Position numbers and translations under genes: made by a program
NCBI GenBank assembly: GCA_947166275.1
Contig: CAMVDP010000013.1
Location: 1-52,922 of the forward strand
Direction: 5' to 3'
DNA length: 52,922 nt
DNA from: an uncultured Clostridia bacterium
GTDB lineage: Bacteria > Bacillota > Clostridia > Oscillospirales > Ruminococcaceae
Part shown: positions 2,453 through 5,255 of the stretch, piece by piece
Numbering within the stretch: position 1 is the first letter of the stretch
Layout: each line of letters opens with the position of its first letter
Notes under the pieces: model-generated
Databases searched by the model: none
Seen by the model: the letters and a program-made list of their open reading frames with translations, nothing else
Told to the model about the DNA's origin: nothing

Positions 2453-2555
2453 AAATATCAGCGACATTGCACAAATATGCTCATGCTCTTTGTGCGGTAT
2501 TGCCAAACGATTAATAAACCGTGACTTATTATCATATCCACAGGAGATGAATACA

Positions 2556-4325
2556 ATGAAAAACGGTTTGATATTCACTAACGAAAAATGTATAGGATGC
2601 AACAGATGTGTTCGTATCTGCTGTTCTTTCGGCGCTACAATATCCCATAACCGCCCTGATCACAGTTCTATACGAATTAATCCGGAACGCTGCATCAACT
2701 GCGGAGCGTGCATCGATGTATGCGGTCATTCTGCAAGAGAATATCATGATGATACCGAAACTTTTTTCGCAGACCTGAAAAAAGGAGAGCACATTTCTCT
2801 TCTCATAGCTCCGTCATTTGAAGCGAAATATCCGGACGAATACCGAAAAGTCCTCGGTGCACTCAAAGCACTCGGCGTGAAGCGTATGCTTCCCGTGTCT
2901 CTCGGTGCTGATATATGCACCTGGGGATACCTGAAACTGATAAACGAAAAGGGATATAAAGGAATGCTCTCAACGACGTGTCCCGTTGTTGTCTCATTTG
3001 TTGAGCACTGGAAGCCGTATCTTATCCCGCTTCTGATGCCAATAAAGAGCCCGATGATGTGCGCGGCCCGTTATTTCCGCGACAAACTCGGCATCACCGA
3101 TAAATTTGCGTTCATAGGTCCGTGTATAGCTAAACGCATGGAAACAGATAAATATCCGGAGCTTGTTCAGTATAACATTACATTTCCGAAGCTCATCGAA
3201 TATATAAACAAGAATGATCTCGGAGATGAGGAGAGTTTTGAGGGTCTTGATGCTGGTCTCGGCACATTCTATCCTGCCCCCGGCGGTCTTAGCGACAATA
3301 TAAAATGGTTTCTCGGTGATGATACGCCGGTTCGTGTTGTTTCGGGGAAAACATACCTGTATGAACGTTTCCTCACGAGCTGGAAAAAACTGCTCGAGGA
3401 TAATAAGCCTTTTGTACTGTATGACGCGCTGAACTGCCGTGAAGGCTGTCTTGAAGGCACCGCCAAGGTATATACCGAAGACCGGGAATTCAAGGGAATT
3501 TCCAATATAAACGATATCAGGACAAAAAGCAAGAAATTTTCTCACGATTCACCGTGGTCTCCGGAGCTTTCTCCCGCACAGCGCCTCGAAAATCTGAACA
3601 GGCAGTTCGGAGATCTTGATCTGAACGACTATATGACAGAGTTTGAAGACAAAAGCCAGACCTGCAGGATTTCCTATCCGACAGATGAAGAAGCCGAAGC
3701 AATATACCGCTCTATGCATAAGGACGATGAAAGCTCAAGAAATATCAACTGTTCTGCCTGCGGTTATGAGACCTGCCATGAAATGATGATCGCGATACAT
3801 AACGGCTTCAACACCCGCCACAACTGTGTTTACAGCGAAAAAGAGGAAAGCATCTATCTCGCAAAGATGTCATTCAGCGACCAGCTCACCGGCGTTATGA
3901 ACAGAAACGCCTATGAGAGAAAGCTTAACACTATGTTCGGGCGCGGCGGTTCGGTCGGTCTTATAGTTGCCGATGTCAACGGATTAAAATACGCTAACGA
4001 TAATGAGGGTCACGGAGCCGGAGACCGTCTTATCATAGAAACTGCACATGCACTTGCGAACGAGTTCGGTGTGGAGCGGGTATTCCGTACCGGCGGCGAC
4101 GAGTTTCTTGTCGTTTTGCAGGATTTCACTGAGCAGGAACTTGAAAATGATATAGTTCTTGTAAAGGAATATCTTTCAAGTGTTAAAGTAAGCACCTCGT
4201 TCGGTCTTGCCTTCTCGGAACATTTCAACGGCGATATGAGTGCGCTCCAGGAGATCGCCGACAAGAAAATGTATGAGGATAAAGAGTGTTACTATAAAAT
4301 GACCGGAAAGGTCCGCAGAATCTGA
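2556..4325 (+). CDS. Ferredoxin / [FeFe]-hydrogenase-like H-cluster sensor fused to a GGDEF diguanylate cyclase
   Basis: A 589-residue cytoplasmic protein with four parts. Residues 11-57 hold two 4Fe-4S ferredoxin motifs (C12, C15, C18, C22; C46, C49, C52, C56). Residues 80-305 match the large-subunit domain of [FeFe] hydrogenases: C142 in TTCP, C190 and K193 in PCIAK, and C294/C298 in a CxxxC. These correspond to the four H-cluster cysteines and the cyanide-contact lysine. The cysteine normally preceding C142 (the proton relay) is Thr141. Residues 399-424 form a further 4Fe-4S site (CxxC, CGxxxC, distal C). Residues 438-589 are a GGDEF domain with an intact GGDEF at 513-517 and no RxxD inhibitory site. 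AGGAG lies 9 bases before the chosen ATG. Likely role: c-di-GMP synthesis controlled by H2 or redox state. Reader or sensor function is inferred. Confidence 0.85.
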   Translation: MKNGLIFTNEKCIGCNRCVRICCSFGATISHNRPDHSSIRINPERCINCGACIDVCGHSAREYHDDTETFFADLKKGEHISLLIAPSFEAKYPDEYRKVLGALKALGVKRMLPVSLGADICTWGYLKLINEKGYKGMLSTTCPVVVSFVEHWKPYLIPLLMPIKSPMMCAARYFRDKLGITDKFAFIGPCIAKRMETDKYPELVQYNITFPKLIEYINKNDLGDEESFEGLDAGLGTFYPAPGGLSDNIKWFLGDDTPVRVVSGKTYLYERFLTSWKKLLEDNKPFVLYDALNCREGCLEGTAKVYTEDREFKGISNINDIRTKSKKFSHDSPWSPELSPAQRLENLNRQFGDLDLNDYMTEFEDKSQTCRISYPTDEEAEAIYRSMHKDDESSRNINCSACGYETCHEMMIAIHNGFNTRHNCVYSEKEESIYLAKMSFSDQLTGVMNRNAYERKLNTMFGRGGSVGLIVADVNGLKYANDNEGHGAGDRLIIETAHALANEFGVERVFRTGGDEFLVVLQDFTEQELENDIVLVKEYLSSVKVSTSFGLAFSEHFNGDMSALQEIADKKMYEDKECYYKMTGKVRRI

Positions 4326-4435
4326 TGATCGTATAATAAGCCCGGTTTCTTTATTTCCCGCGATTATCATAGATATTTTCTTCAGGTTCATAGTATTAGT
4401 TTCAATTATAAAGATATACTGCTATTTTCAAAACA

Positions 4436-4464
4436 GGTTCGGAACAATCGCTCCGGACCTTTTT
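4436..4464 (+). terminator. Rho-independent terminator downstream of the GGDEF fusion gene
   Basis: An 8-bp stem (4436-4443 with 4452-4459, one G-U pair) closes an 8-base loop and is followed by TTTTT (4460-4464). It lies 110 bases past the stop. The rest of 4326-4615 is AT-rich with no recognisable gene. Confidence 0.7.
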
Positions 4465-4615
4465 GTTGTGTATTCTGACCGCCATTATAAAGAAATACAG
4501 ACGACAGGATCCGACACGACAGACCTGTATTTCTGTTATTTCTTAACGCTGTCATAAACAGAACAGCCGAATATTTGAAAAAACGCGGCATATCTTTTAG
4601 AAAGGCGGTGAAAAT

Positions 4616-4723
4616 TTGGTCATAAACAAATACAAGACCGAAAATGAAAAGGAAAGAAGCGAGAAGCTCAACGATCTCCTGGCGGAGTTCATCAACAACA
4701 GAGAAAACAACAAAACGGTCTGA
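4616..4723 (+). CDS. Small 35-residue ORF leading a recombinase stub
   Basis: A TTG start at 4616 stands five bases after AAGGCGGTG. The peptide is hydrophilic and highly charged (Lys, Glu, Asn-rich) and lacks a membrane segment. An inverted repeat (4709-4718 with 4758-4767, AACAAAACGG arms, T-rich after the second arm) overlaps its end and separates it from the recombinase stub. That arrangement looks like a leader or accessory gene of a recombinase-bearing element. I do not recognise the family, and no ATG is available in this frame. Confidence 0.4.
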   Translation: MVINKYKTENEKERSEKLNDLLAEFINNRENNKTV

Positions 4724-4767
4724 CCCTGATTGCCTATAATCAATTAGCAGCAACCGGCCGTTTTGTT
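4709..4767 (+). terminator. Inverted repeat between the small ORF and the recombinase stub (attenuator-like)
   Basis: Ten-base arms AACAAAACGG and CCGTTTTGTT enclose about 39 bases. The second arm ends in a T-rich stretch just before the recombinase ribosome site. It could act as an attenuator. Confidence 0.45.
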
Positions 4768-4783
4768 TGCGGGAGGAAACAGA

Positions 4784-4966
4784 ATGACAGATCTACCGAA
4801 AGCTGCGATCTATTGCAGGCTGTCCGAGGAGGACAGGAACAAAGTGCGCGGCACGGATGACAGCGAGAGCATCAAAAACCAGAAGGCTATGCTCACACAG
4901 TATGCGGCCGATCACGACTGGCTCATATACGACATATATTCGGACAGAGAGATTCATACCGTATAG
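4784..4966 (+). pseudogene. Serine recombinase N-terminal remnant
   Basis: The start ATG at 4784 follows GGGAGG. The first 54 residues match the catalytic N-terminus of large serine recombinases: AAIYCRLSEED with the expected catalytic serine, then SESIKNQK, and W-x-IYDIYSD. In intact homologues an EDYSG-type sequence and about 400 more residues follow. Here the match ends at about base 4945, and the frame closes after a few unrelated residues. The rest of the enzyme is gone, so it cannot recombine DNA. The next bases encode a GGDEF tail in another frame, showing that two genes were joined by deletion or recombination. Confidence 0.8.
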
Positions 4967-5199
4967 GCGGCGACGAATATGTCGCGTTCTTGACAGACCG
5001 GCCACTCACAGATGTTGAGAACAAGTTATCCGAAATGAAGAAATGTATGGCCAAAAAGGGGTATCATGCGGCAATAGGATATGAATTCTGCGACACGAAG
5101 GATGTCATTATGAACAATCTTATTGTCGTCGTTGAATCGAAGATGTACAAGGACAAGTCGGAATACTACAAGACCCATGAAAGACGCACACGGCAATAA
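4946..5199 (+). pseudogene. C-terminal fragment of a GGDEF domain protein
   Basis: Starting near base 4948, in a different frame from the recombinase stub, the translation reads DSYRIGGDEYVAFL and continues to an alpha/beta tail ending in ESKMYKDKSEYYKT at 5199. This is the second half of a diguanylate cyclase domain, including an intact GGDEY loop, but everything N-terminal is missing. The only start-like codon is an internal TTG at 4990, after the GGDEY, without a convincing ribosome site. It is a remnant of a further GGDEF gene in this signalling-rich locus. Confidence 0.75.
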
Positions 5200-5255
5200 A
5201 ACAAAACCGTTATTCTGAAATGGTATTGCTCATATTCCTTCATAGATCTGCTCAA

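Follow-up and report, generated by a model that had tools for sequence, protein, structure and literature searches.

Could a single protein convert hydrogen, or the redox state, into a c-di-GMP signal? This question is raised by a gene in a 52,922-nt stretch of DNA (hereafter the window) from an uncultured Clostridia bacterium of the Ruminococcaceae (assembly GCA_947166275.1, contig CAMVDP010000013.1). The gene (2556..4325), which like all features given below lies on the + strand, runs from an ATG at 2556 to a stop codon at 4323-4325 and encodes a product of 589 amino acids with the layout Fer4x2 - H-domain - FeS - GGDEF, as delimited by translation, Pfam and homologue alignment. A ribosome-binding-like AGGAG, read directly in the sequence, precedes the ATG at 2542..2546. 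We rejected a longer protein starting at TTG 2409, the mechanical start of the open reading frame, because the starts of its homologues correspond to 2556 or lie a few residues from it. On the 3′ side, a hairpin search of the region found a terminator-like hairpin at 4435..4460, consistent with a one-gene transcript; five such hairpins were found in the region versus 2.1 expected. Beyond it, positions 4517-5211 form a 695-bp insertion absent from the sister genome G060, whose sensor protein is 99% identical to that of the window. The insertion contains the start of a reading frame that we take to be serine-recombinase-like, together with part of a further GGDEF gene, namely its C-terminal half.

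The original prediction placed two ferredoxin motifs, a hydrogenase-like domain, an extra Fe-S site and a GGDEF domain, in that order, on one chain. Pfam and the motifs agree with this order, and the residue numbers given were correct. The two [4Fe-4S] ferredoxin motifs (residues 9-60, 2580..2735; translation and Pfam) have cysteines C12/15/18/22 and C46/49/52/56, with Fer4-type Pfam matches falling within residues 7-60. They are followed by the H-domain (Fe_hyd_lg_C, PF02906, residues 81-301, 2796..3458; E 1.3e-22), which also aligns with solved hydrogenases. The extra Fe-S site, C399-x2-C402-x4-C407-x16-C424, lies in an FeS match that is just over threshold (PF04060, residues 397-426, 3744..3833; E 4.5e-5, 23.5 bits vs a cut-off of 23), and its Cx2Cx4Cx16C spacing is that reported for sensory hydrogenases of groups C and D in the available part of PMC8163306. 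The chain ends in the GGDEF diguanylate cyclase domain (residues 440-577, 3873..4286; Pfam E 4.7e-18).

We aligned the H-domain to solved hydrogenases with a single-sequence search and also with a profile built from 18 selected relatives. In both alignments the H-cluster cysteines are matched by C142, C190, C294 and C298, and K358 by K193, in the numbering of CpI, which is taken in part from papers (PMC8163306, PMC10055695). These five residues had been predicted to be kept, with the cysteines superposable on the H-cluster ligands, which is where sequence alignment puts all four, in agreement with the relatives. L1 reads S-T-T-C-P, and within it 2976..2981 (by alignment) encodes T141, at the position of the relay cysteine C299, and the adjacent ligand C142; the threonine, also as predicted, fits published features of sensory [FeFe] hydrogenases. 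L2 (3120..3134, by alignment) reads P189-C190-I-A-K193 and contains a ligand and the cyanide-contact lysine, and L3 (3435..3449, by alignment) holds the ligands C294 and C298. A85/P86 align to A230/P231 and P189 to P354, positions that, together with K358, we take to be [2Fe] contacts in CpI, while G188, L292 and Y239 stand at M353, M497 and F417. A catalytic [FeFe] hydrogenase (groups A/B) was rejected, since S-T-T-C-P replaces a TSCCP-type L1 with relay cysteine and the models of catalytic enzymes scored far under their cut-offs (TIGR02512, 75 vs 406 bits; TIGR04105, 130 vs 450; the A6 model, 62 vs 765). The protein has features of putative sensory [FeFe] hydrogenases (groups C/D): the four cysteines and the lysine, two N-terminal [4Fe-4S] motifs plus the C-terminal Cx2Cx4Cx16C, and changes at all of C299, M353 and M497 (T141, G188 and L292).

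Conservation of these residues was assessed in a set of 134 sensors, from which duplicate loci and near copies (L001, L003, L007, L064-L070, L091-L093, L129, L160) and a weak, distant match (L063) had been removed, and some members of which are clipped by contig ends (L009, L032, L056 and others). Among the 14 GGDEF-type sensors (counted without the near copies L003 and L007), the four cysteines, P86, P189 and K193 were kept in every case and A85 in 13, and the F417 and M353 positions were Tyr and Gly in all 14. TmHydS has Y223 and G177 at these two positions, according to the available text of PMC10055695. Leu at M497 was found in all 126 sensors outside a divergent clade of eight (L036, L047, L049, L051, L059, L060, plus L056 and L061); the same source describes M497L CpI as lacking properly integrated [2Fe] (PMC10055695). 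The divergent clade keeps the four cysteines in all eight members, but in each of them A230 is replaced by Ser, P231 by Ser or Thr and K358 by Arg, and in five P354 is replaced by Ser. The contrast between this clade and the cyclase clade, which keeps the pocket, shows that sensors of this family can lose it and suggests a constraint on the cyclase clade to retain it. An EAL domain was seen in six of the divergent sensors, the other two being short or cut. These six have a degenerate GGDEF (GGNNF or GGNIF) and an EAL motif that reads ESL or ETL, and their EAL domain is likely active. Four genomes (G033, G048, G058, G060) hold both a cyclase-type sensor and a member of the divergent clade.

Can the output domain work as a cyclase? 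The signature R511-T-GGDEF (residues 511-517, 4086..4106; translation and alignment) is intact, and the motifs of diguanylate cyclases, namely GG[DE]EF, the metal Asp, ND and GHxxGD, are present. D473, K478, N481-D482, G485-H486 and G489-D490 are invariant in 13/13 aligned GGDEF-type proteins, which bears out the predicted intact GGDEF. The domain is thus a putative diguanylate cyclase that should make c-di-GMP. The position that we assume for the inhibitory site reads F504-G-V-E507, so that RxxD, the usual product-inhibition motif, is absent; therefore cyclase output may not limit itself. A reader of c-di-GMP could be the one PilZ protein of the genome itself, which is among the nine of 11 genomes tested in which PilZ was present. 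A search for c-di-GMP-I riboswitches gave no match, and none in the controls either.

We then compared the protein with known systems. TmHydS of Thermotoga maritima (group C/M2f), as far as available descriptions go, shares with it two N-terminal [4Fe-4S] motifs, an H-domain with altered C299, M353 and M497, Tyr at F417, and the C-terminal Cx2Cx4Cx16C motif followed by a signalling domain. This likeness is one of description: TmHydS ends in PAS, whereas the window protein has the GGDEF enzyme on its chain, and the M497 position is Ser in TmHydS but Leu in the window protein. TamHydS of Thermoanaerobacter mathranii (group D/M2e), likewise compared by description, has the same cluster plan, with no PAS or other output domain on the chain reported in the available text. 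RaHydS of Ruminococcus albus is said to be of PAS type, unlike the window protein. It is a proposed sensory [FeFe] hydrogenase in the accessible part of a review (PMC8924675), and the record of one close relative, L092, is titled Ruminococcus sp. By output, the kinase- and MCP-fused relatives resemble groups C1 and C2 of HydDB, the available part of which gives kinase-linked (C1), chemotaxis-linked (C2) and phosphatase-linked (C3) [FeFe] groups, all putative (PMC5037454). Its table, in the portion available, has no diguanylate-cyclase-linked or EAL-linked [FeFe] class, and the only cyclase-linked class there is the putative [NiFe] group 2c (PMC5037454), which shares the proposed H2-to-c-di-GMP logic but differs in metal site and protein family. 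In the literature collection searched, we recognised no description of a GGDEF-linked [FeFe] protein. We place the window protein among the putative sensory [FeFe] hydrogenases of group C or D, the GGDEF output being the feature that appears to be new.

A single-gene oddity was rejected, as the module is widespread both in the genus and in named genomes. The fusion itself was borne out; the original prediction concerned one protein, which belongs to a modular family. A sensor-type match, called as the best match of the query protein with E up to 1e-50 (our own threshold), was found in 46/71 genomes of the genus. The scan of named genomes gave at least 467 confirmed relatives, and the best 80 of these 467 all carry a recognisable output, as one would expect if the module is a sensor. 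Assigned with seeds taken from relatives that Pfam had annotated, the outputs of these best 80 were MCP (38), MCP with receiver (4), GGDEF alone (11, three of them in genomes of the genus already counted), EAL with or without a recognised GGDEF (16) and histidine-kinase types (11). By record titles, the GGDEF-only type occurs in Ruminococcus, Ruminiclostridium, Lachnospiraceae, Blautia, a ‘Bacillales’ bin, Coriobacteriaceae/Atopobiaceae and Selenomonas bovis DSM 23594. In a tree of 59 rows (53 sensors chosen from the 134, plus six HydA), the 14 GGDEF-type sensors formed one group with the single kinase-fused L101 (support 100/100), a group whose record titles come from both Bacillota and Actinomycetota. 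Across the tree of all 134, the output label changes at least 12 times (four unclassified rows included); therefore the module behaves as a plug swapped between outputs. Operon partners were rejected as well: among the 14 GGDEF-type loci no neighbouring gene was held in common except within the pairs window/G060 and G057/G058, and beyond the immediate neighbours there were only scattered matches of 21-52%.

Two other arrangements were seen among the sensors. The MCP-fused sensor L077 (G013:C7) follows, at a distance of ~1.9 kb, a HydA gene that has the same orientation. In L037 and L031, sensor modules of 561-563 aa, the C-terminal part matches no tested output domain (L037 was checked with Pfam and seeds, L031 with seeds).

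Does the H-domain receive an H-cluster? The original prediction counted absence of hydEFG from the genome against itself, and the draft indeed lacks them: neither HydG nor HydE was found, nor HydF over cut-off, in this 81% complete assembly, whose single PF02906 gene is the sensor of the window, though sister G060 has hydE, hydG and hydF side by side. Over cut-off, HydG was detected in 38/71 genomes of the genus, HydF in 35/71 and HydE in 39/71; HydE and HydF were searched for in the genus only, and among 14 control genomes HydG was over cut-off only in Thermotoga maritima. Only two of the 16 GGDEF-type genomes (G033 and G060) have HydG, and the 14 others include Selenomonas bovis DSM 23594, the record of which is not marked as a MAG. 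HydG was over cut-off in 14 of 50 further sensor-bearing genomes, which are part of a set of 75. BLAST with the G060 HydG matched 10 of 25 chosen genomes, at 76-100% identity in the known positives G060, G033 and G085. The other seven matches (21-32% identity over part of the length) we take to be other radical-SAM proteins, and nothing above 32% was found in the 14 HydG-negative GGDEF-type genomes. The genus has 41 high-quality genomes; one or more of HydE, HydF and HydG scored over cut-off in 14 of the 26 with sensors vs 14 of the 15 without, a negative link between sensors and maturases (Fisher p 0.014) in genomes that are related and so not independent.

HydA-type genes are common in sensor-bearing genomes, and 11 of the 12 high-quality genomes with a sensor and no maturase carry one. 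HydA with TSCCP was found in three HydG-negative named isolates that are not marked as MAGs (the genomes of L114, L122 and L152) and in the HydG-negative G070 (L084). In 2011 it was pointed out that [FeFe] hydrogenase occurs in a few species without the three maturases (accessible text of PMC3226654). For the 109 of the 134 sensors with a HydG result for their genome, the pocket was kept in 64/69 in HydG-negative vs 36/40 in HydG-positive genomes, and in 14/15 vs 17/21 in the high-quality genomes of the genus. Missing HydG was therefore rejected as proof of an empty pocket, given retention that does not differ with HydG status and TSCCP-type HydA in HydG-negative named isolates. A kept pocket, for its part, does not show which cofactor it holds.

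Our preferred reading, which we consider evenly poised between right and wrong, is that the protein is a one-component converter in which a sensory [FeFe]-hydrogenase module is joined to a diguanylate cyclase, the H-domain holding a [4Fe-4S] cubane and most likely [2Fe]. The input would consist of the N-terminal clusters, the H-domain and the C-terminal Fe-S motif; H2 or redox state would act on the H-domain, and a conformational change would relay this via the Fe-S motif to a GGDEF pair. The cofactor, the signal, the direction of the response, dimerisation and the conformational coupling are parts of this scheme that we infer. The original description of a sensor “wired directly” to the cyclase is doubtful as an electron wire, because H2 leaves the C-terminal cluster of TamHydS unreduced, according to the available text of PMC13104023; by this analogy, allostery is the likelier path. 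Artificial maturation gives a working H-cluster in TmHydS and TamHydS, which have the same cluster plan, in the available accounts (PMC8163306, PMC10055695), and H2-to-c-di-GMP signalling by the GGDEF-type sensor is plausible. Against the preferred reading count HydG in only 2/16 genomes, sensors that do not track maturases, and Leu at M497. The sensory role of such proteins is called putative in the available part of a 2022 review, which notes some regulatory evidence for RaHydS and TsHfsB (PMC8924675).

Three other readings were weighed. The H-domain might hold only a [4Fe-4S] cluster and sense redox, oxygen or iron status rather than H2, in the manner of Nar1/IOP1, hydrogenase-like proteins with [4Fe-4S] only and no [2Fe]. 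This is possible though doubtful: the lack of HydG in 14/16 genomes and Leu at M497 fit it, and the divergent clade, with its four cysteines but altered [2Fe] contacts, makes such a sensor seem viable in the family, but the P231, P354 and K358 positions are kept in 14/14 GGDEF-type sensors, retention of the pocket does not differ between genomes with and without HydG, and TSCCP-type HydA in HydG-negative isolates implies that missing HydG may not mean a missing H-cluster. Those HydA genes, including that of G070, also speak for an H-cluster sensor whose [2Fe] does not come from host HydEFG, either by an unknown maturation path or because maturases are absent from the assemblies, as do the maturase-free high-quality genomes with sensors (12/41, 11 of them with a HydA-type gene) and the maturase-free species noted in 2011 (in the accessible text of PMC3226654). 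We nevertheless hold this reading improbable, as the larger HydA of the HydG-negative L071 and L073 has Ser at ligand C300, as in HydG-positive G060, which puts its own cofactor in doubt. We also know of no alternative [2Fe] maturation path in bacteria. Finally, fusions of the H-domain to many outputs could persist for dimerisation, the protein being an ordinary cyclase whose H-domain is a relic that only dimerises GGDEF. This is very improbable in view of 50 invariant positions, 33 of them Cys, Gly, Pro or K193, in the 18 chosen sensors, which are 32-84% identical to the query and include none from the divergent clade.

Returning to the converter, a wider and more tentative version, unlikely as a whole, would see a gut-bacterial clade of H2-to-c-di-GMP switches, mostly without detected HydG, that use an H-cluster from an unknown route or a new cofactor in the same pocket and exert paired make-and-break control, with the divergent, pocketless module driving c-di-GMP breakdown in some of the same genomes. 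The fusion may let a single protein read hydrogen or redox state and set a lifestyle signal and, if so, gut hydrogen level would be linked to programmes of attachment, motility or surface polymers. A kept [2Fe] pocket without HydG, beside a related clade that lacks the pocket, also raises the question of H-cluster assembly. Neither TmHydS nor TamHydS carries an enzyme as output on its own chain, and their signalling was deduced from spectroscopy and genome context, as far as the available texts go. A cyclase on the same chain would offer a direct read-out, c-di-GMP per minute under H2 or N2, and would make the question of whether sensory [FeFe] hydrogenases sense H2 answerable in one tube.

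A variant L1 was found among the HydA-type genes. Seven of them, encoding 590-613 aa (L071, L073, L082, L083, L175, L176 and L177, in genomes G048, G009, G060, G001, G077, G071 and G073), have TSCSP, with Ser at ligand C300, whether the genome is HydG-positive or HydG-negative, and a TSCSP-type variant is noted in Melainabacteria in the available text of PMC3787301.
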